A stretch of DNA of 34,950 nt from an uncultured Spartobacteria bacterium (lineage in GTDB: Bacteria > Verrucomicrobiota > Verrucomicrobiia > Chthoniobacterales > Chthoniobacteraceae): the NCBI GenBank assembly GCA_903916085.1, contig CAIWVL010000259.1, positions 1-34,950 on the forward strand, read 5' to 3'. Position numbers and translations under genes: made by a program. Below, in pieces: positions 282 to 16,235 of this stretch; within the stretch, counting starts at the first letter, position 1; each line of letters begins with the position of its first letter. The notes under the pieces were generated by a model, which had not been told where the DNA came from, made no database searches, and worked only from the letters and a program-made list of their open reading frames with translations.

Positions 282-1679
282 CTAGTGCGCTGACGTTGGG
301 TGAAACTCCCAAGTGCCGCACACGCCGATGCCGAACCCTTTTTCGCCCATCAAGGTGGAGCGGCGGTTCTGGAGATCTGTGCCTGCTGAATTGTTCCCGT
401 GCCAGTTGAGTGCTGCGGCGAGCTTCCTCGCCTCCTCTTGGGTGTCTGCCTCGAAGTAGTAGACCGCCCCAGCAGGCACCGCGAGATGGGTGGATTTGAA
501 GCCGCCCTTCTCTCGCTCTGGATCGCTGTTACTGGCAGTGGCGTATCCAGTGACAATGCTCGGCTTGGATACTGTGGCTGCGACAAGCCGGGCTGCAATG
601 CGTTTGCCCGGTGGACGCCCGATGCGTTTGGCCTTCAATCGGCCCGGCCCGTCGAGCAGGAGCACTGAGCCAGCGGCCACCTGTTCCCCTTCAAACGTTT
701 GATCCTGCGCGGCAATCCAGTTTGGGAGCCATCCGCCAGGGTGCGGATTAATTTTTTCTCCAGGGGAAGATTCTTTGGCGCAAATCTCCGGCCAGATGGC
801 GGGCGACAACAGGATCCACTTCACGCGGGTGCCGTGGATTTCCGCTCCGAGGGGCAGGGGCAGCTTAGATTTTGGGGAGTCGAGCAACTCTGCAGTGCAG
901 ATACGTTGCTGGCCGCCAATAACGATCTGGTGCTGGCCTTGGTCTAGGAGTTGATGAATTAAATCCGTTTTGTGGATGGGCTGGCCACGCCCTTTATCTA
1001 AGGCGCTCGCAAATACGCCAAGCCGTACGTTGTCTCGGAGGCGGAGGTAGTGCGCCGAGTAGAACTGCCCTTTGACCACCGAGTTTGTCTCAGGAGAAAG
1101 CTCAATGCCGCAGGTATGTTCGGTGTCTGAAAAGTCGTTATCTCTTTGAAACTTTTGGTCCGGTATGGAGGTGCCTTTGAGATAGGCATTCCAAGCGGCC
1201 TCGTTCCACCAACCGGGAGCGGTTGATTTGCTCGGGGGTTCCACACTTGCGACGGCGTACTTCAGCGGAAAAGGCAGGCTGGATGGGCTCTCCATTTGAA
1301 GTGGAAAGAGCGTCACTTTAGCATCGGCTGGGTGCCCTTTTTCGGGATCCTCGTCATGGGGACGGCCAGCGTCTGCGGGGCGGGGAAAGTACCAGTTCCC
1401 TTGGGCGTCTACAGGGAAGGGGCCGGCGCTCACGAGTGATCCGAACTTGCGCCCACTGCGCTGGCGGTTTTCCTCGGAATAATCCCGCACACTTGATCCG
1501 CGTCCCGGCGCGTGGAGATGCACATCTGCAAGCTCAGCGCGATGCAGGGCGGCATGGAGGGCATAGCTAATGATGTTGGGCAGGGGCCAGGCGGCGCCAT
1601 GGCCGGAGGCCGACCCTCCCATGGGACGGCCGTCTCGGAAAAATAGAACGTCTGTGGGGCGTAATAGGATGGTATTCAT
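282..1679 (-). CDS. cmr3: Cmr3, type III-B CRISPR RAMP protein
   Basis: A 465-residue protein beginning MNTILLRPTDVLFFRDGRP, then MGGSASGHGAAWPLPNIIS and a helix with LHAALH. The LFFRDGRP...WPLP pattern near the N-terminus is diagnostic of Cmr3. In known Cmr complexes this Cas5-like subunit pairs with Cas10/Cmr2 and anchors the 5' tag of the crRNA. Glycine-rich stretches such as GGFKSTHLAVPAG and the C-terminal GEKGFGIGVCG fit RAMP-type loops. Length is typical or slightly long for the family. The start lies 3 bp after the cas10 stop codon, so the two genes are likely translationally coupled. The order cas10-cmr3-cmr4 supports the assignment. Confidence 0.93.
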   Translation of the reverse strand: MNTILLRPTDVLFFRDGRPMGGSASGHGAAWPLPNIISYALHAALHRAELADVHLHAPGRGSSVRDYSEENRQRSGRKFGSLVSAGPFPVDAQGNWYFPRPADAGRPHDEDPEKGHPADAKVTLFPLQMESPSSLPFPLKYAVASVEPPSKSTAPGWWNEAAWNAYLKGTSIPDQKFQRDNDFSDTEHTCGIELSPETNSVVKGQFYSAHYLRLRDNVRLGVFASALDKGRGQPIHKTDLIHQLLDQGQHQIVIGGQQRICTAELLDSPKSKLPLPLGAEIHGTRVKWILLSPAIWPEICAKESSPGEKINPHPGGWLPNWIAAQDQTFEGEQVAAGSVLLLDGPGRLKAKRIGRPPGKRIAARLVAATVSKPSIVTGYATASNSDPEREKGGFKSTHLAVPAGAVYYFEADTQEEARKLAAALNWHGNNSAGTDLQNRRSTLMGEKGFGIGVCGTWEFHPTSAH

Positions 1680-1682
1680 GGG

Positions 1683-4436
1683 CTAGTTGCCTTTCGGCGC
1701 GGGGGGTTCGGGGCTGGTGCGGTGGGCGAAGGCAACCGTTGTGCAGAGACCAATGACTGCGGCTAACAAGGTCTGTGCGGTGGGCGCTAGCGTCCCTGTC
1801 TTAGAAGGCTGAGGAGCGGCAATTTTCCGCAAATATGTAGATAAAATGGGTCCGAGCTCTCTCTCGTTTTCCTCGGCCTTACCTTGCTCAGATTGACGTC
1901 TAATAGAGAAGGCGAACTCCTTCTCGATGAGGCTTATGACGGTTTCGACGGGAATGTCCGCACTCTGCTTCGAAAGGCCGCTGCGGGAGTTCCGATAAGG
2001 CTCAAGTAACTGGCACACACGGTGCGGAAACTTTGCGCTTAAAGCGCCGGAATCAAGGCGTGTGGCTATGGCATTATACAGCACAATTCCACCGCTCTGC
2101 CACTGGCAGCCCCATTCCGTGATTTCACCCGAGCGCTTGAAGATAGAAATGGCAACGGCGGCGCGGTGTAATTGGTTTTTCGCACGCTTTTCTGCCGTTT
2201 GTGCGGCGCGTACCACATCTTGGAGCGGTGCCTTGAAGTGGGCGATCGCGATTCCCACGGAGCAATCTGCGGCTTCTCCGGGCACGGTAAAGGGAATGAG
2301 TTCATTCCGTTCATCTCGGGAGCCATCGCTGAGAAAGCCCGGATTCACCTGAGTGAGGTCGGCGCGTTCCACCGAGCGGCCTTGAAAAGCGTCCCTGAGC
2401 GCTTGGGCGCATTCCAGAGCCTGGTTTGCAGGAAGCATGGCGAGGACATCATCGCCCCCAGCGTAAATGAGTCGGCCATCCCACTTTTCAACAACACGCC
2501 TGGCACAATGCAGCGCGAAGTTTGATAGCGACTCGCTAAATTGAAGGTGGAATCCAGGTGAGAGCGGACGCCGTTTTTGGAGGAAGTCTTTCGCGCCCGG
2601 TTGCGGAGCTTTAAATTCCTTTTGCTCAAAATAAGCCACCGCCCCTCTGCGTTCGCCATGCTCATCCCTGTAGTCAGCGAGTATCCGCTCAAAAGTTGGC
2701 GTGTTTTCACCACTGACCCAGCGTCCGATTTGGTCGCCGTCTAGGGCAAGGATGGCAAAGTGTTTTTTGTCGTTCTCGGGAACGTCATCTGCATCTTCCG
2801 TGGTATCTGCAAAGGGAGTCCCTGCGGCGATACCGTGCGTGTTTGGCATCGGAAATTCTCGGCCATGCTGCGTACGCAGAGCCCATTTCTGGTTGAGGTA
2901 GGCTAGATGCCAGACCCTTTTGACCAGGGTAATTGCGCCGACCGGAGCGGGCTTCTTGAATAGCGTTAGCCATTCTCCCTTGAGGACATGCTCGCAGCGG
3001 CTGTGCCAAGCGTCTCCACCAGCCACTGTTTCCTCGCGGCCCGTGAGAGCATCTTTTTCGTTACTGGAGGTGGCGCTCCATCCGCCTGAGTGCCAGGCTT
3101 CAAAGGCGCGTGTTTGCCTTACCGCATCTAATTTCCAACTGGCGTGCTGCACGAGTATCGACCACGCGACACCAATGTTATTGAGCTTAGCTTCGCTGGT
3201 ATTATCTGTGTAGTACCGTGAGTCCCGATGGCTCACTGGCATCTGTGTTGTCGCCATCTCGGTTACCCCCTCCACTGCGGAGGCAGCTTGGCGGATAGGC
3301 ATCCCCTCAGGAAATCCTGCGGCCGCAAGTTTCAGAGCTTCGTTGAGCGTGTTTGGCCAAGGCTCTGCTGCCCAGGAAATTTGGAGGAAGCGGTTAACTT
3401 GTCGCTCAAACCGAGGCTCAAGGACGTCTTCTGTGAGCCCCTCCTTTTCGCAGCGCTCCCAGCAAGCTCTCGCGATTGATTCCCATTCATTCTGAATAGC
3501 GTTTGCGACAAGCTTTCCAAGTCGATCTGCTTGTTGCTCGGGAACGATTGCCAAAAATACATTTGGCAGATTTGGAACGAGCAAATGATCTCTATGGCCG
3601 TCTCGATCATCGTAGCCAAATGAGTCCCAGATACTCGTGTCACCGATGGAAACCTTGCTCCAAAGCTCGTCGCGCCAGTGTAGATCAAATAAGGGTTGGC
3701 CGTGTAGATTTGGAAAAACCACGGCGTCTGGCCCGATTTCAGCACTCAATGCCTTCATTCCCGCCGCCATTAGCCACGACAACAGGTAGCTTCCACTCCA
3801 CAGGTCACGCACACTCTTTGCCGCCGCAATAAAGTCCTGCACCGGGCCGAGTTGGAATTTCAGGAAAGCGGGCCGCAAAATTGTGCCGTTGGCTGTCGTC
3901 TCTGTGCAACTGGCCAGCGCGGACACCATCCCCATGTGGTTCCAAATTGTGTGATCGGGAATCCGAGTGTCGGCGGGTAAGAAGGCGAGTCGCCGGTCCT
4001 TGGCGCTGGCTCGAGTTTTCCAAAGCCGCCAGTGGGCGAAGTAGCGGGCTCTCCATTTTTCTGGCTCGGGGAGGTCCCCAAAGTCTGACAACACAGGTTG
4101 AACGGTCTGCGTGACTTCCTCTGCGAGGTTTGCAGTTTTGAATGGCTCGAGCCTTAAAGGTTCGCCACTCAAGGGATGGCGAAAGGTGTTTTGCATTCCG
4201 TCAAATCGACATTTCAACCCAGAGGCTCTTGAACTCGGAAACGGCAGTCGATCTGCTGCTGCTGCGGTGTGGTCCGCAGCTTTTTCGTACTTCTGGATGT
4301 GTTCTTCCGGAATCTCTGCCTGGACGTAAGCGCTTCGAGCAATCTTCCAGTGTTCGGCAATGTCCAGCGCTTTGCTGGGTGGGTCGTGGAGGAAGGCAGC
4401 GAGTTTTTGGATCCAGAAGGAAGAGTCGTTGTGCAT
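1683..4436 (-). CDS. cas10: Cas10/Cmr2, large subunit of the type III-B CRISPR effector, with HD and GGDD motifs
   Basis: A 917-residue protein. Near the N-terminus is an HD motif (FLHDPPSK, His17-Asp18), the usual site of single-stranded DNA cleavage in Cas10. Cmr2-type segments follow: ADHTAAAADR (about 54-63), PADTRIPDH (about 154-162) and FLKFQLGPVQDFI (about 191-203). The Palm domain region carries LALDGDQIGRWVSG (about 563-576) and YAGGDDVLAMLP with GGDD at 660-663. GGDD is the catalytic motif that makes cyclic oligoadenylates from ATP in active Cas10 proteins. Both active sites therefore look intact, so signalling by cyclic oligoadenylate is expected. The gene begins the cas10-cmr3-cmr4 run, with about 350 bp of non-coding DNA separating it from the upstream Lon-like gene. 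Confidence 0.95.
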   Translation of the reverse strand: MHNDSSFWIQKLAAFLHDPPSKALDIAEHWKIARSAYVQAEIPEEHIQKYEKAADHTAAAADRLPFPSSRASGLKCRFDGMQNTFRHPLSGEPLRLEPFKTANLAEEVTQTVQPVLSDFGDLPEPEKWRARYFAHWRLWKTRASAKDRRLAFLPADTRIPDHTIWNHMGMVSALASCTETTANGTILRPAFLKFQLGPVQDFIAAAKSVRDLWSGSYLLSWLMAAGMKALSAEIGPDAVVFPNLHGQPLFDLHWRDELWSKVSIGDTSIWDSFGYDDRDGHRDHLLVPNLPNVFLAIVPEQQADRLGKLVANAIQNEWESIARACWERCEKEGLTEDVLEPRFERQVNRFLQISWAAEPWPNTLNEALKLAAAGFPEGMPIRQAASAVEGVTEMATTQMPVSHRDSRYYTDNTSEAKLNNIGVAWSILVQHASWKLDAVRQTRAFEAWHSGGWSATSSNEKDALTGREETVAGGDAWHSRCEHVLKGEWLTLFKKPAPVGAITLVKRVWHLAYLNQKWALRTQHGREFPMPNTHGIAAGTPFADTTEDADDVPENDKKHFAILALDGDQIGRWVSGENTPTFERILADYRDEHGERRGAVAYFEQKEFKAPQPGAKDFLQKRRPLSPGFHLQFSESLSNFALHCARRVVEKWDGRLIYAGGDDVLAMLPANQALECAQALRDAFQGRSVERADLTQVNPGFLSDGSRDERNELIPFTVPGEAADCSVGIAIAHFKAPLQDVVRAAQTAEKRAKNQLHRAAVAISIFKRSGEITEWGCQWQSGGIVLYNAIATRLDSGALSAKFPHRVCQLLEPYRNSRSGLSKQSADIPVETVISLIEKEFAFSIRRQSEQGKAEENERELGPILSTYLRKIAAPQPSKTGTLAPTAQTLLAAVIGLCTTVAFAHRTSPEPPAPKGN

Positions 4437-12292: not shown

Positions 12293-12369
12293 GGGGTGCA
12301 CTCTAACCACGCCATCTAAAAGCCTGCAATAGGGTTGGCTTCAGAGAGGTGGTTAGATGAAGCGAACTG

Positions 12370-12658
12370 ATGCGTCATTTCTCACCGAACAGCCTCTTAG
12401 TAGGCTGTTCGGGCAAGAAAGTCGGATCGGTTCACTTCTGAAGCCCCAACGGGGCGAACGACGGCAGCCTAGGGCAAAGCCCTAGGTTTTGGATGAAAAA
12501 GTCCATAGCCCTATAGGGGCACCCTAAATCGAGCCATGTTTTGGGACGCCCTTACAAGGGCTGACTTCACCTGACCGGTAATCCTAGGGCGTTGCCCTAG
12601 GCTGTCATAACTCGCCCCTTTGGGGCTTAGGAGGTCCGCCTCGCATGCGTCATTTCTC
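12370..12658. mobile_element. Direct repeats bracketing the palindromic element, possible target-site duplication
   Basis: ATGCGTCATTTCTC occurs at 12370-12383 and again at 12645-12658, an exact 14-bp direct repeat. The similarity continues for several bases (CACCG and CCCCG). The copies tightly flank the symmetrical palindromic element, so the bracketed segment of about 261 bp could be a non-autonomous insertion with duplicated target. Alternatively the direct repeats are part of the element itself. Confidence 0.45.
12387..12626. repeat. Compound palindromic element with mirror-ordered hairpins
   Basis: A chain of perfect or near-perfect small palindromes. They are GAACAGCCT/AGGCTGTTC (12387-12410), GCCCCAACGGGGC (12443-12455), CCTAGGGCAAAGCCCTAGG (12468-12486), GCCCTATAGGGGC (12508-12520), GCCCTTACAAGGGC (12548-12561), CCTAGGGCGTTGCCCTAGG (12583-12601) and GCCCCTTTGGGGC (12614-12626). 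The last six form an A-B-C-C'-B'-A' order. Spacings are mirrored exactly: 12 bp between A and B on both sides, and 21 bp between B and C on both sides. The whole is therefore a large inverted repeat made of palindromes, centred near 12534. Similar dispersed elements are, to my recollection, common in PVC genomes. Confidence 0.85.
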
Positions 12659-12909
12659 CCCGTACTGGGTACTTGGTACTATTCGCCATCGAGGGCCTGT
12701 TTTCCCATCTGGAGCAGGCTGCGAATCTCAACTGGATTGTCAGACAGGCGAGTGTGCGGATGTAGAGCGAGCGCTTAGGCTGGCTTGCGTTTTTGGACCG
12801 AAAAAGCTCTTATTCCATTTACCCTTCGCCCCGCGCGAAACTCGCATTTGCAATCGTATTCGGATTTAAAGCTCGGAAGCAGATCGCTTGGATAACGCAG
12901 ATCTTCTCA

Positions 12910-14772
12910 TCATGTTCTCAGTACGGCGATTTTCGCCTGGAATACGGCTCTGTTGGTGTATTCCTGCGCATACTCATTTTGGAACTTAGCAAACTCATTT
13001 GCATACGACGATTGCAGTCGAGCCACGTTTGCTGTTATCTGCCTGCCGCGTGTCATAAGCCTAGCCACCTCTGCTTGGACCAGCTCACTCCACTTATTTC
13101 TTTCTGCGTCTGGAACCCTATTAAACGGTGGGAAGCGGAACGAACGCTCGCATTCATCTCTCCAAGCAGTAATGCGGTCTCTAAGAGCTTCTCCAAAGGA
13201 GGGAAGGGACTCAAGTCTTGCTTGATGTACGTCTGCCGCCGTTACAACGCCATGTGCCGCTAATGTGGCTTTCCGACTATTGCCAATTCCGCGAATGCTT
13301 GCTTCGTCAATTTTGTAATTCCTCAGATGCGTTTGTAAGGCTTGTTCACGTTTGAGCGCATGTAGTTTTTCAAGCGCACGCACGTTAACGCCTGACTTAT
13401 TCCTGAGCGCTTCGACAAGGTCTGGCGCGTCCTCCAAGAGTTGCTTTGCCTCGGCCTCATATCGCGAAAATAGAACGAACGCCTGCGAACGCAGCCAGTT
13501 CAAACGATCTTCTGCAATTTTCAGTTGGCTTTGAATTTCGGCGATTTGTTTGGCCACAAAGCGCTCTCGCATTCCAAACAATTGGAGATTGCCCAGCCAG
13601 CCGCCGGGTTTTTGTCCAGCCGGAAGCGCGTTAGCCACTGCTGCAGATAAGACGGCCTGCGGCGGCGCTGATAGTTGCCGCGCTTCCAGCCTTAAGTCGC
13701 TAAGTGCATCGGCCAGATCTAAGCCGTCCTGCGAGGTTGGCAATCCCACTTGGGGCGGCGAGGGGGAAGGAATGCCTTGAAATAAGTCAATGTGGGCAGT
13801 GCGCAGGACTTTGCACCAAGGGCACTGGAGGGCGCCGCTCCAGTAAATGTGGGCGGGGAGCGCGCTGCACCTTTTTAAGCTGGAGGCTAGGTTGCGCAGT
13901 TCCTCCACCCATTCGCTTGCGGTGGGCCGGGCTGAGGCCGACGCTGCGCGAAACGCACGCAAAAACAGGAGGCAGATCGCTGGCGGCAGCGATTCCAGCG
14001 GCGGTGCCCCGGGTGGAGGCTCCAGTAGGCGCACTGGTGGCGTGGGATCGAAGGCGAAAGCATGCCGCTTGATGGCCTCATCTGGGCTCAATTGCGTGTT
14101 CCCAACAGGGCGTCCAGCGAACGGATAGCGACCGGCAAAAAGCAGGAGGAAAATAAGCTGTGCGAGCCCAAACAAATCGTGATTTTGAGTGCGCATCAGG
14201 CCCTGCATGGAGATTCCCTGTAATTCAGGGGGCGTCCAAATGGGCGTGCCTAAGTCGCTCGTGAACACACGTCCGTTGTGTGAGATTTGAAAACTATCGC
14301 AGTCAATGAAGTTCAGTCTGCCATCAGGCAGCACCTTGATGTTCTGCTCGTTCACATCACCCACCACGACTCCATGGGCGTGCAGATTCTCAAATGCTAC
14401 CGCTAGATTTCGCGCTGCAGCGATCAGAAACTCAAATGTGGCATCGCCAAAATGAACCTGGCGCCCCTGCGGATTGTATAGCTCGTGAATGTTATGGCCC
14501 CCGACGAACGGCATGAACGCCGCATGGGCGTTTGAGTCGCCCTCCCGCGTAAATCCCAGACTCACAGGCAGTGCGGCGTGTCCACGAATGGCATTGGGCA
14601 GCGAACGCAAGGCGCGCAGTTTGTCCTGTTTGGCGGTCGTGAGCGGAATGGTGTGATAGATTTTGACGCAAAAATTTGGGGCTTCTACCACGCGGTGCAC
14701 CACGCCCTCGCCACCTGCGGCGATCTTTTCGCCGACGGTCCACGCCTTGCCAGATTCGTCAAAAATTGGCAT
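12910..14772 (-). CDS. YegI-like protein kinase with C-terminal helix-hairpin-helix region
   Basis: A 620-residue protein. The N-terminal 290 residues form a eukaryotic-like kinase domain. It has a glycine loop KIAAGGEGVVHRV (17-27), an ATP-site Lys in FCVKIYH (Lys37), a catalytic loop VVVGDVNEQNIKVLPDG with Asp139, a DFG equivalent FIDCDSF (Asp157), and GTPIWTPPELQG as the APE-like segment. The HRD and DFG motifs are altered (VGD and DCD), as I recall for the YegI group. A CPWC knuckle follows at about 315-318. The region from about 400 is coiled helices, then SIRGIGNSRKATLAAHGV, a helix-hairpin-helix motif. It overlaps the phosphatase gene by 14 bp and ends the three-gene operon. It presumably phosphorylates Ser/Thr in partners reset by the phosphatase. 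Length is close to E. coli YegI. Confidence 0.82.
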   Translation of the reverse strand: MPIFDESGKAWTVGEKIAAGGEGVVHRVVEAPNFCVKIYHTIPLTTAKQDKLRALRSLPNAIRGHAALPVSLGFTREGDSNAHAAFMPFVGGHNIHELYNPQGRQVHFGDATFEFLIAAARNLAVAFENLHAHGVVVGDVNEQNIKVLPDGRLNFIDCDSFQISHNGRVFTSDLGTPIWTPPELQGISMQGLMRTQNHDLFGLAQLIFLLLFAGRYPFAGRPVGNTQLSPDEAIKRHAFAFDPTPPVRLLEPPPGAPPLESLPPAICLLFLRAFRAASASARPTASEWVEELRNLASSLKRCSALPAHIYWSGALQCPWCKVLRTAHIDLFQGIPSPSPPQVGLPTSQDGLDLADALSDLRLEARQLSAPPQAVLSAAVANALPAGQKPGGWLGNLQLFGMRERFVAKQIAEIQSQLKIAEDRLNWLRSQAFVLFSRYEAEAKQLLEDAPDLVEALRNKSGVNVRALEKLHALKREQALQTHLRNYKIDEASIRGIGNSRKATLAAHGVVTAADVHQARLESLPSFGEALRDRITAWRDECERSFRFPPFNRVPDAERNKWSELVQAEVARLMTRGRQITANVARLQSSYANEFAKFQNEYAQEYTNRAVFQAKIAVLRT

Positions 14773-15571
14773 GGGAGTGCGTCACTAATGCAATGGATTT
14801 GTCGTCGTCTGTACGTGAACAGACTTGTTCAGAGCTCAGGAAGTCTTGCAACTGCTCTCGAAACTCCTGTTCTCCTGCCGCGAGTGCTTTACCTGCCGGG
14901 AGAAAAAATCCTGCCGCTGGAAGTTGCGTGCGGAATTCGAGAAGGAGGCGCTCCAATCCGTCTGTAAATCCAGCCAGTAGGGTGGGCGCAGTTTTGAGAT
15001 GCACCATCTGGAGGGCGTCTTCTGCTGCAAACGAGGTCGCGAAGGTGGTTTGGCCGGCGAACTCTCCAGAAGTTGGCCAAGTCAGGCAGCCGAGAATGCC
15101 TTCGCCGAGTACGCCATTAACTTGGGCAACCCAAGCGCCATCGCCGACCTGGGCTACGAGCGTATGCGTAGGCGTGAGGACGGCCCCTAGGAGCGTTGCG
15201 GATAACTCTGAGGGCTCAGTGCCAAGTTCCCGGGCCTCGCTAACAACTTCTTCCCGGATGGATCGCAGGAGCCCGATCATCTCCTCGCGCTCAAACTCGG
15301 CCAGCAGGCGAGCGGGATCGGGATTTTGGTCCAGAAGCACACGAAAGGTGTCCAACCACTGCCGAACTACGATTTTCGCTCCCTTATCGGCGTGGGCCGC
15401 CGAGCCTGCGCCATCAGAGAGGGCGAGGAGGAGGATTTCCTGCTCGGGGCCCAGTGTTTCTGCGCCGGAGGCATCCTGGCAAGGCAGGCCACTTTGATGG
15501 TGACTCGTGCCTATGGCCGACGTACACGCGTGGTTCCACCGGATTTTAGGTTTCGATCGTAATCCAGGCAT
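14759..15571 (-). CDS. PP2C-family Ser/Thr phosphatase, YegK-like
   Basis: A 270-residue cytoplasmic protein with the metal-binding motifs of PPM/PP2C phosphatases. These are GTSHHQSGLPCQDAS (Asp33), LALSDGAGSAAHADKGA (Asp53), QVGDGAWVAQ (Asp144) and GFTDGLERLL (Asp204). The DGAGSA version of the usual DGMGG motif is typical of the group paired with vWA and kinase genes, such as E. coli YegK. It overlaps the vWA gene upstream by 26 bp and the kinase gene downstream by 14 bp, strong evidence for coordinated translation and a shared pathway. It probably reverses phosphorylation by the neighbouring kinase. The target proteins are unknown. Confidence 0.88.
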   Translation of the reverse strand: MPGLRSKPKIRWNHACTSAIGTSHHQSGLPCQDASGAETLGPEQEILLLALSDGAGSAAHADKGAKIVVRQWLDTFRVLLDQNPDPARLLAEFEREEMIGLLRSIREEVVSEARELGTEPSELSATLLGAVLTPTHTLVAQVGDGAWVAQVNGVLGEGILGCLTWPTSGEFAGQTTFATSFAAEDALQMVHLKTAPTLLAGFTDGLERLLLEFRTQLPAAGFFLPAGKALAAGEQEFREQLQDFLSSEQVCSRTDDDKSIALVTHSHANF

Positions 15572-16235
15572 TAGGGCTAGGCAGTTGTAGTTTGGTGCCA
15601 GGGCTTGAGGTTGACACGCCTTTGAGTGAGGAGGAAAGCCAGCGGAACATTTCTCCGAAATGAATTCCCTTAAGTTTTACTGAAGGTCGCTGCGGAGGGC
15701 ACAACGAGTCGAGCATACGCTGGTTGGCGTCGTTGACTGCTACGCCAAAGAAGAGCAGGCGCTTGGCTGCTTCTCCCTCGTGGACCGCTTTGATTGCGCG
15801 TGTCCAGGACTCAGAGTCGGCATCGGTGGGTTCGCCGTCTGTGATTAAGAGCATCCAAGGCCGGTAGTATTGAAGGCCAGCTTGGCGGTATTCGGCTTTT
15901 CGAGCTTCCAGAAGTTGGCAGCCGCGTAGCACTGCTTCACCCATCGGTGTGGGGCCATCTGCGGAAAAGTGCGGGGCGATGAAGGCGCTGGGCGGGGTGA
16001 AGTCGCAGGCGATTTGCACGGTGGTGCCGAAGGTAACCACGGCGAGTTCCACCCGCTTGCTGGCGAGACTGTCTTGGCTGAGCTCGTCCATGAGTAGTTG
16101 GACGCCCAGGTTGAGTTCCTCGATGGGGGCACCGCTCATGGAACTGGAGGTGTCCAGTAGCAGCACACACGGGCACCGTGGTTCAGGGTTTGTCGCTAGG
16201 CTAAGAGAGGAGTGGAAGGGAGTTTGTTCGGACAT
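15546..16235 (-). CDS. von Willebrand factor A domain protein, YegL/TerY-like
   Basis: A 229-residue protein that is almost entirely one vWA domain. The metal-ion-dependent adhesion site is complete: LLLDTSSSMSG (Asp28, Ser30, Ser32), DGPTPMGEA (Thr96) and LLITDGEPTDAD (Asp133). There is no signal peptide or membrane segment, so it acts in the cytoplasm, probably as a scaffold binding protein partners. It starts the vWA-phosphatase-kinase operon. Such 'TerY-P' triads have been described by comparative genomics next to stress and conflict systems. The 26-bp overlap with the phosphatase gene ties the products together. What signal it senses cannot be read from the sequence. Confidence 0.88.
   Translation of the reverse strand: MSEQTPFHSSLSLATNPEPRCPCVLLLDTSSSMSGAPIEELNLGVQLLMDELSQDSLASKRVELAVVTFGTTVQIACDFTPPSAFIAPHFSADGPTPMGEAVLRGCQLLEARKAEYRQAGLQYYRPWMLLITDGEPTDADSESWTRAIKAVHEGEAAKRLLFFGVAVNDANQRMLDSLCPPQRPSVKLKGIHFGEMFRWLSSSLKGVSTSSPGTKLQLPSPNAWITIET

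Follow-up and report, generated by a model that had tools for sequence, protein, structure and literature searches.

The window, that is, the whole 34,950-nucleotide stretch analysed here, carries type III-B CRISPR genes on the reverse strand at 285-4436, comprising Cas_Cmr3 (285-1679) and Cmr2/Cas10 (1686-4436) by Pfam. On the same strand, genes for a protein kinase, a PP2C phosphatase and a VWA protein stand in a row at 12913-16235. Such kinase/PP2C/VWA triads are often part of stress or conflict systems; this one adjoins the element that is our subject, an ORF-less unit of nested palindromes inside terminal inverted repeats (TIRs; Table 1).

Table 1. Features of the element and its immediate left neighbour, in window coordinates
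Feature	Position	Strand	Basis
Full IS630-type MITE (shell and core), including the terminal TA on the left	12398..12674 (right end approximate)	.	TIR ends; extent of homology among the 13 aligned near-full copies
Left TIR and subterminal sequence of the MITE shell	12398..12442	+	
Right subterminal sequence and right TIR, containing the right 14-bp repeat	12627..12674	-	
Solo TIR of left type from a second copy, abutting the full element back to back and containing the left 14-bp repeat	12359..12397	-	
Left 14-bp direct repeat ATGCGTCATTTCTC, part of the solo TIR	12370..12383	.	
Right 14-bp direct repeat ATGCGTCATTTCTC, part of the element's right TIR	12645..12658	.	
Outer palindrome, the junction of two back-to-back TIRs	12385..12412	.	
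Core of six hairpins: Acido-Lenti-1 arms in an inverted dimer without a gene	12443..12626	.	RF01687 matches, palindrome positions, core copies in family genomes
Left arm: RF01687 match, 38.7 bits (cut-off 37)	12442..12486	-	
Right arm: RF01687 match, 40.5 bits (cut-off 37)	12583..12627	+	
GCAG, tag-like tetranucleotide 5' of the CCTAGGGC hairpin	12464..12467	+	
Palindrome B	12443-12455		
Palindrome C	12468-12486		
Palindrome D	12508-12520		
Palindrome D'	12548-12561		
Palindrome C'	12583-12601		
Palindrome B'	12614-12626		

The core consists of six palindromes in mirror order, with gaps of 12 bp between B and C and between C' and B', and of 21 bp between C and D and between D' and C'. The tag-like GCAG also has its mirror image, CTGT at 12602-12605, which reads ACAG on the other strand. 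Folded as single-stranded DNA, positions 12384-12645 reach -76.6 kcal/mol, compared with a mean of -40.4 for shuffled sequences (z -9.5), and none of 200 shuffles folded as well. A preliminary description made from the letters alone had reported the mirror order with equal gaps and proposed a structured strand; the order holds at exact positions. A seventh palindrome stands outside the six at 12387-12410; the stretch around it, the outer palindrome at 12385-12412, folds on its own at -13.1 kcal/mol (z -7.9).

The unit is dispersed through its own genome. Searched against that 3.70-Mb, 379-contig assembly, the 289-bp stretch at 12370-12658 yields 65 matches at E<=0.001, which by manual count represent about 38 separate places, which rules out a single-copy sequence; 13 places cover at least 190 of the 289 bases. 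Identity of the other near-full copies to the window copy is only 81-93%. Aligned with their flanks, the 13 near-full copies define one unit, with ends TAGTAGGYAGTTCGGTGAGAAATGACGCAT... and ...ATGCGTCATTTCTCACCGAACTACCTACTA. The multicopy repeat foreseen in the preliminary description is thus real, but its limits were misplaced: the left 14-bp repeat lies outside the unit. The two copies of ATGCGTCATTTCTC, taken there for a target duplication, are segments of TIRs, one belonging to the element itself and one to an abutting solo TIR (G000:C259:12359-12395:-) with a 95% match to the left TIR in the reverse orientation. In other copies this sequence, the inner part of the TIR, lies on the right, and the left TIR contains its reverse complement. 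There is therefore no 14-bp target duplication.

The ends are those of an IS630-type MITE. A TIR-like end is present on at least one side in all 13 near-full copies and on both sides in 6, under lenient matching that allowed up to 4-5 mismatches and with a weak end at one place (L005). The termini common to the dispersed copies read C/TA-GTAGGCAGT.CGG...CCG.ACTGCCTAC-TA/G, the slashes marking the element's limits. The base preceding the left TA is C in 8 of the 11 near-full copies with a recognisable left end, and the base following the right TA is G in 6 of the 8 with a recognisable right end, which fits a TA within CTAG, the setting that IS630 elements prefer; the window copy's own ends are degraded to T/TA and TT/G. 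Insertion at TA with duplication of the TA is described for the IS630 family in the available text on ISY100 (PMC2170065). The pattern TAGTAGGYAGTNCGG, with one mismatch allowed, occurs 38 times in the genome versus 4 times for a reversed-pattern control, and 30 of these 38 places were examined for what adjoins the ends. No empty site was seen between close relatives. Two core-less shells, L137 (G000:C358:7454-7544) and L138 (G000:C135:15898-16000), could be ancestors of the composite unit or products of deletion, as each retains a single outer hairpin B.

Several other small repeat families in the same genome (L085-L114) have TAGTAGGCAGT.CGG ends around different interiors, and at four places (L012, L013, L014 and L104) other small elements seem to have inserted at CTAG inside the CCTAGG palindromes of the core. 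Scarcity of CTAG was considered as a cause of nesting, the window holding 61 occurrences versus 131 expected from base composition; a Markov model expects 58, and the idea was dropped for that reason.

The same ends occur on IS630 transposase genes. Transposase-like starts lie behind shell-type ends in the element's own genome, most clearly on contigs C83 and C2, and an IS630-type transposase remnant there has 18 of 18 terminal bases in common with the shell TIR (C83:28629-28646). In a genome of the same genus (G010), a two-ORF IS630 element, L144, lies between CTAGTAGGCAGTAACG and its inverse; its ORFs score 55.6 and 143.9 bits against the NCBIfam IS630 model (cut-off 100), and the protein search that led to it found matches in 4 of 197 genomes of the order. 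IS630 copies in two further genomes (G112 and G013) have other TIRs in the same CTAG setting. A DDE_3/IS630 gene on contig C239 (L084) was rejected as the parent: it has its own ends, GTATC.., and the adjacent TAGTAGG end belongs to another element. We found no intact IS630 transposase with these ends in the own genome, where the parent transposon looks dead; given this and the low identity between copies, the MITE family looks old. As judged from these sequence comparisons, the element is a MITE, probably amplified in its own genome by IS630-type ends. It resembles IS630/Tc1-mariner MITEs in its short TIRs common with an IS630 transposase, its TA ends inside CTAG, its lack of an ORF and its dispersal, and differs from them in carrying inside it a complete dimer of what appear to be another transposon's ends.

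Acido-Lenti-1 (RF01687), a family found in proximity to group II introns, supplies the identity of the core. Both inner arms exceed the Rfam cut-off and stand head to head, and the 12-nt linker of the Rfam model is the 12-bp gap of the mirror array; in sequence and in both hairpins with this linker, the arms resemble the RNA as given in the available text of its original report (PMC2864571). The own genome has 35 RF01687 matches at E<=1, including 7 '-+' pairs with gaps of 95-102 bp. Among the matches listed for the bacterial family to which the organism belongs, 29 of 40 genomes have RF01687 at E<=0.01 and 17 have it over the cut-off, and the core occurs in family genomes without the TAGTAGG shell. 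One genome, G037, contains Acido-Lenti-1 cores in a second, unrelated shell with GGGYGYRATTAAAAGTGGT ends (L261, L269-L273, L070 and L080).

In relatives, the arms flank genes for transposases of the HUH/Y1 kind, whose substrates are folded single strands. At one locus, L069, arms lie on both sides of a 150-aa ORF that scores 91.8 bits against Pfam Y1_Tnp and 70.9 against the NCBIfam IS200 model (cut-off 55), and only 23.4 against the REP-associated REP_Tyr model (cut-off 80). This Y1 unit (L069:1501-2140) has part of a DNA-methylase-like frame on either side, which looks like an insertion in or close to that gene. A search with the L069 protein found matches in 28 of 40 family genomes. For 12 of the best 150 RF01687 matches in the family genomes, a Y1 gene is no more than 300 bp away, against 0.06 expected; the nearest of the 67 Y1 matches in those genomes is at most 138 bp from each of the 12. 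The window's own genome has no enzyme of the L069 type at E<=1e-5 in the protein search; the REP-type or other trans-acting enzyme that the preliminary description proposed to look for was not found there in matching form. The genome has three other Y1_Tnp matches, one below the cut-off, and on inspection by eye the two IS200-like genes on contigs C348 and C168 do not look like the matching type.

A contig scan with a Y1 alignment returned 579 relatives, the best 80 of which serve as named loci, mostly from records of Verrucomicrobia, Planctomycetes and Bacteroidetes with some other phyla, labels that in MAG records may be wrong. A Rfam scan of these loci (449,153 bases) gave 17 RF01687 matches in 8 of the 80, all 11-345 bp from the Y1 ORF, where the zone within 400 bp of the ORF makes up 15% of the non-ORF sequence; the only other Rfam matches were one tRNA and one DUF3800-VIII. 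RF01687 proper, at the Rfam cut-off, is confined to these 8 loci because most arms have diverged beyond the model; the remaining Y1-flanking arms are structurally alike and divergent in sequence. Inverted repeats between the two flanks exceed the 99th percentile of controls in 65 of 77 loci versus 10 of 987 controls, three of the 80 having flanks too short for this test. AG precedes strong flank hairpins in 92 of 185 cases, 8 of the 185 being N-run artefacts, versus 4 of 29 far-flank controls. At one locus (L238:2691-2952), the upstream side of a Y1 gene has a series of four RF01687 copies, one every 72 bp.

The spacing of paired arms ties the gene-less dimer to the transposon. Among the best 150 RF01687 matches in the 11 other genomes behind the Y1 loci, we counted 28 consecutive '-+' pairs less than 1 kb apart and 20 pairs in other orientations. 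The '-+' gaps in these listed matches are bimodal, with 23 pairs at 64-122 bp, 5 at 474-602 bp and none between; the long class has a gene between its arms and the short class has none. The Y1 protein search had already turned up three of the five long pairs. Spacing alone led to the other two (L289 and L290), and in each a Y1 gene with Y...Q..HH lies between the arms. The dimer without an ORF, the form seen in the window, thus corresponds to the transposon without its gene.

By their signature motifs, the enzymes in question fall in TnpA-Y1 subclass 1.2, for which no DNA partners are known according to its description. The available text of Quentin et al. 2018 gives DH[IV]H, WQ and Y...Q..HH as the signature of this subclass (PMC6006769), and the 80 named proteins have DH[IVL]H (or EH) in 77, WQ in 80 and Y...Q..HH in 78, of which only the first and last are informative because WQ was part of the retrieval pattern. 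They also agree with the subclass in length, about 148-150 aa (PMC6006769). The same text places subclass 1.2 close to IS200 transposases, with REP scored 'no' and generally without terminal secondary structures, and describes it mostly from Cyanobacteria and Bacteroidetes (PMC6006769), whereas here most loci have arms and many of the records are from Verrucomicrobia and Planctomycetes.

Parallels to the core exist among systems with repeats around tyrosine transposase genes. Like REPIN/BIME and the REPtrons of TnpA-REP (RAYT), the arms are tagged palindromes, dispersed in inverted pairs and flanking a Y1 transposase in relatives, but there are three hairpins per arm here and the tag is NNAG rather than GTAG, as far as the available text on RAYT goes (PMC8266576). 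The window itself has GCAG and ACAG in place of GTAG or GTGG at the hairpin foot, and the L069-type enzyme falls above the IS200 cut-off and below that of REP_Tyr. For Sm RAYT, the same partly available source reports that the last two bases of GTAG are essential for cleavage and proposes that the CT cleavage site pairs with the AG of the tag (PMC8266576). RF01687 ends in CU, and by analogy this end and the AG of its tag may parallel the CT/AG pairing. The available text of Di Nocera et al. 2013 describes TIRtrons, in which long inverted repeats bearing a GGGGWSAS motif flank a tyrosine transposase gene and in some cases also form dimers at other places (PMC3733652), so the flanking-repeat architecture as such is already known. 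That text makes no link to RF01687 (PMC3733652), and most TIRYTs are assigned to subclass 2.1, not 1.2, in the part of the classification available (PMC6006769).

Could the core instead be a genuine trans-acting or cis-regulatory RNA, its location in a mobile element being secondary? Rfam classes RF01687 as an sRNA and both arms pass its gathering score; any transcript through the core would fold; and the table of Weinberg et al. 2010, as available, scores Acido-Lenti-1 'y' as RNA and 'n' as cis-regulatory (PMC2864571). We nevertheless consider this improbable. Head-to-head pairing at fixed spacing, both in the own genome and in the 11 others, is a symmetry more easily explained by the two strands of a DNA element than by a single RNA, and RF01687 matches flank transposase genes. 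Of the functional RNA offered as an option in the preliminary description, the match to an RNA family thus stands, whereas the genomic context points to DNA ends. Acido-Lenti-1 is thus probably not a dedicated small RNA but the REP-like terminus of a widespread family of transposons that TnpA-Y1 subclass 1.2 enzymes mobilise; its gene-less dimers appear to have been captured repeatedly by unrelated MITEs, an IS630-type one here and the second shell in G037.

Taken together, the locus is most likely a two-layer mobile element: an IS630-type MITE shell around a gene-less pair of Y1 subclass 1.2 transposon ends, the Acido-Lenti-1 of Rfam. An IS630-family transposase acting in trans would have mobilised the shell in double-stranded form and inserted it at TA in CTAG. 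The core would be an inverted, gene-less dimer built from the end of another transposon, one that belongs to an IS200/IS605-like subclass 1.2 Y1 (HUH) transposase; in relatives each end carries three hairpins, the middle one preceded by an NNAG tag, and the two ends bracket the transposase gene. From these comparisons we infer that the Y1 enzyme most likely works like TnpA-REP in binding and cutting the folded single strand, and that it rejoins the strand at the arms, an action that would spread gene-less dimers, solo arms and full units alike. In this lineage, a dimer would then have entered an IS630-type MITE and been multiplied by the IS630 transposase; the core, here without a matching enzyme, would be copied as a passenger of the shell. 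The preliminary description had envisaged a transposed unit recognised as a structured single strand, and its multiple copies, together with the HUH/Y1 transposases flanked by the arms' family, favour that reading on sequence grounds; overall its multicopy mobile unit survives, its target duplication does not, and no matching Y1 transposase turned up in this genome at E<=1e-5.

There are two other accounts of the element. The core might have been spread in this genome too by a Y1 transposase, and the TAGTAGG ends would then simply be repeats beside it or part of the target. In relatives the core is mobile together with Y1 genes, and a 379-contig MAG may lack a transposase gene. This, too, we regard as having little probability: the 13 near-full copies have shell and junctions in common, the shell ends recur on other, core-less families and on IS630 remnants, and a subclass 1.2 gene is absent from this genome at E<=1e-5. 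It is scarcely credible that the element is just an IS630 MITE of the usual kind, without a Y1 link and with internal palindromes that owe their origin to chance or to stability: the shell alone would explain the multicopy spread, and MITEs often contain inverted repeats, but the core recurs in many genomes outside this shell, also within the other shell of G037 and around Y1 genes, and this, together with the '-+' spacing, largely refutes the idea.

The two-layer reading, with the REP-like end at its centre, seems new as far as the link of Acido-Lenti-1 to a Y1 transposase is concerned. No tie between the RF01687 motif and a transposase was found in the open full-text literature as far as available, nor did the accessible literature on subclass 1.2, on RAYT with Rfam and on chimeric MITEs contain an RF01687-transposase link. 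If true, an orphan Rfam family would gain a cause and an orphan transposase subclass a substrate, both testable in vitro. Acido-Lenti-1 matches are still treated as possible regulators in recent work, for instance those next to Tannerella proteases (PMC13298647). The folded ends of one transposon would ride inside the shell of another, and hairpin elements that are not autonomous may in this manner persist after the loss of their enzyme.
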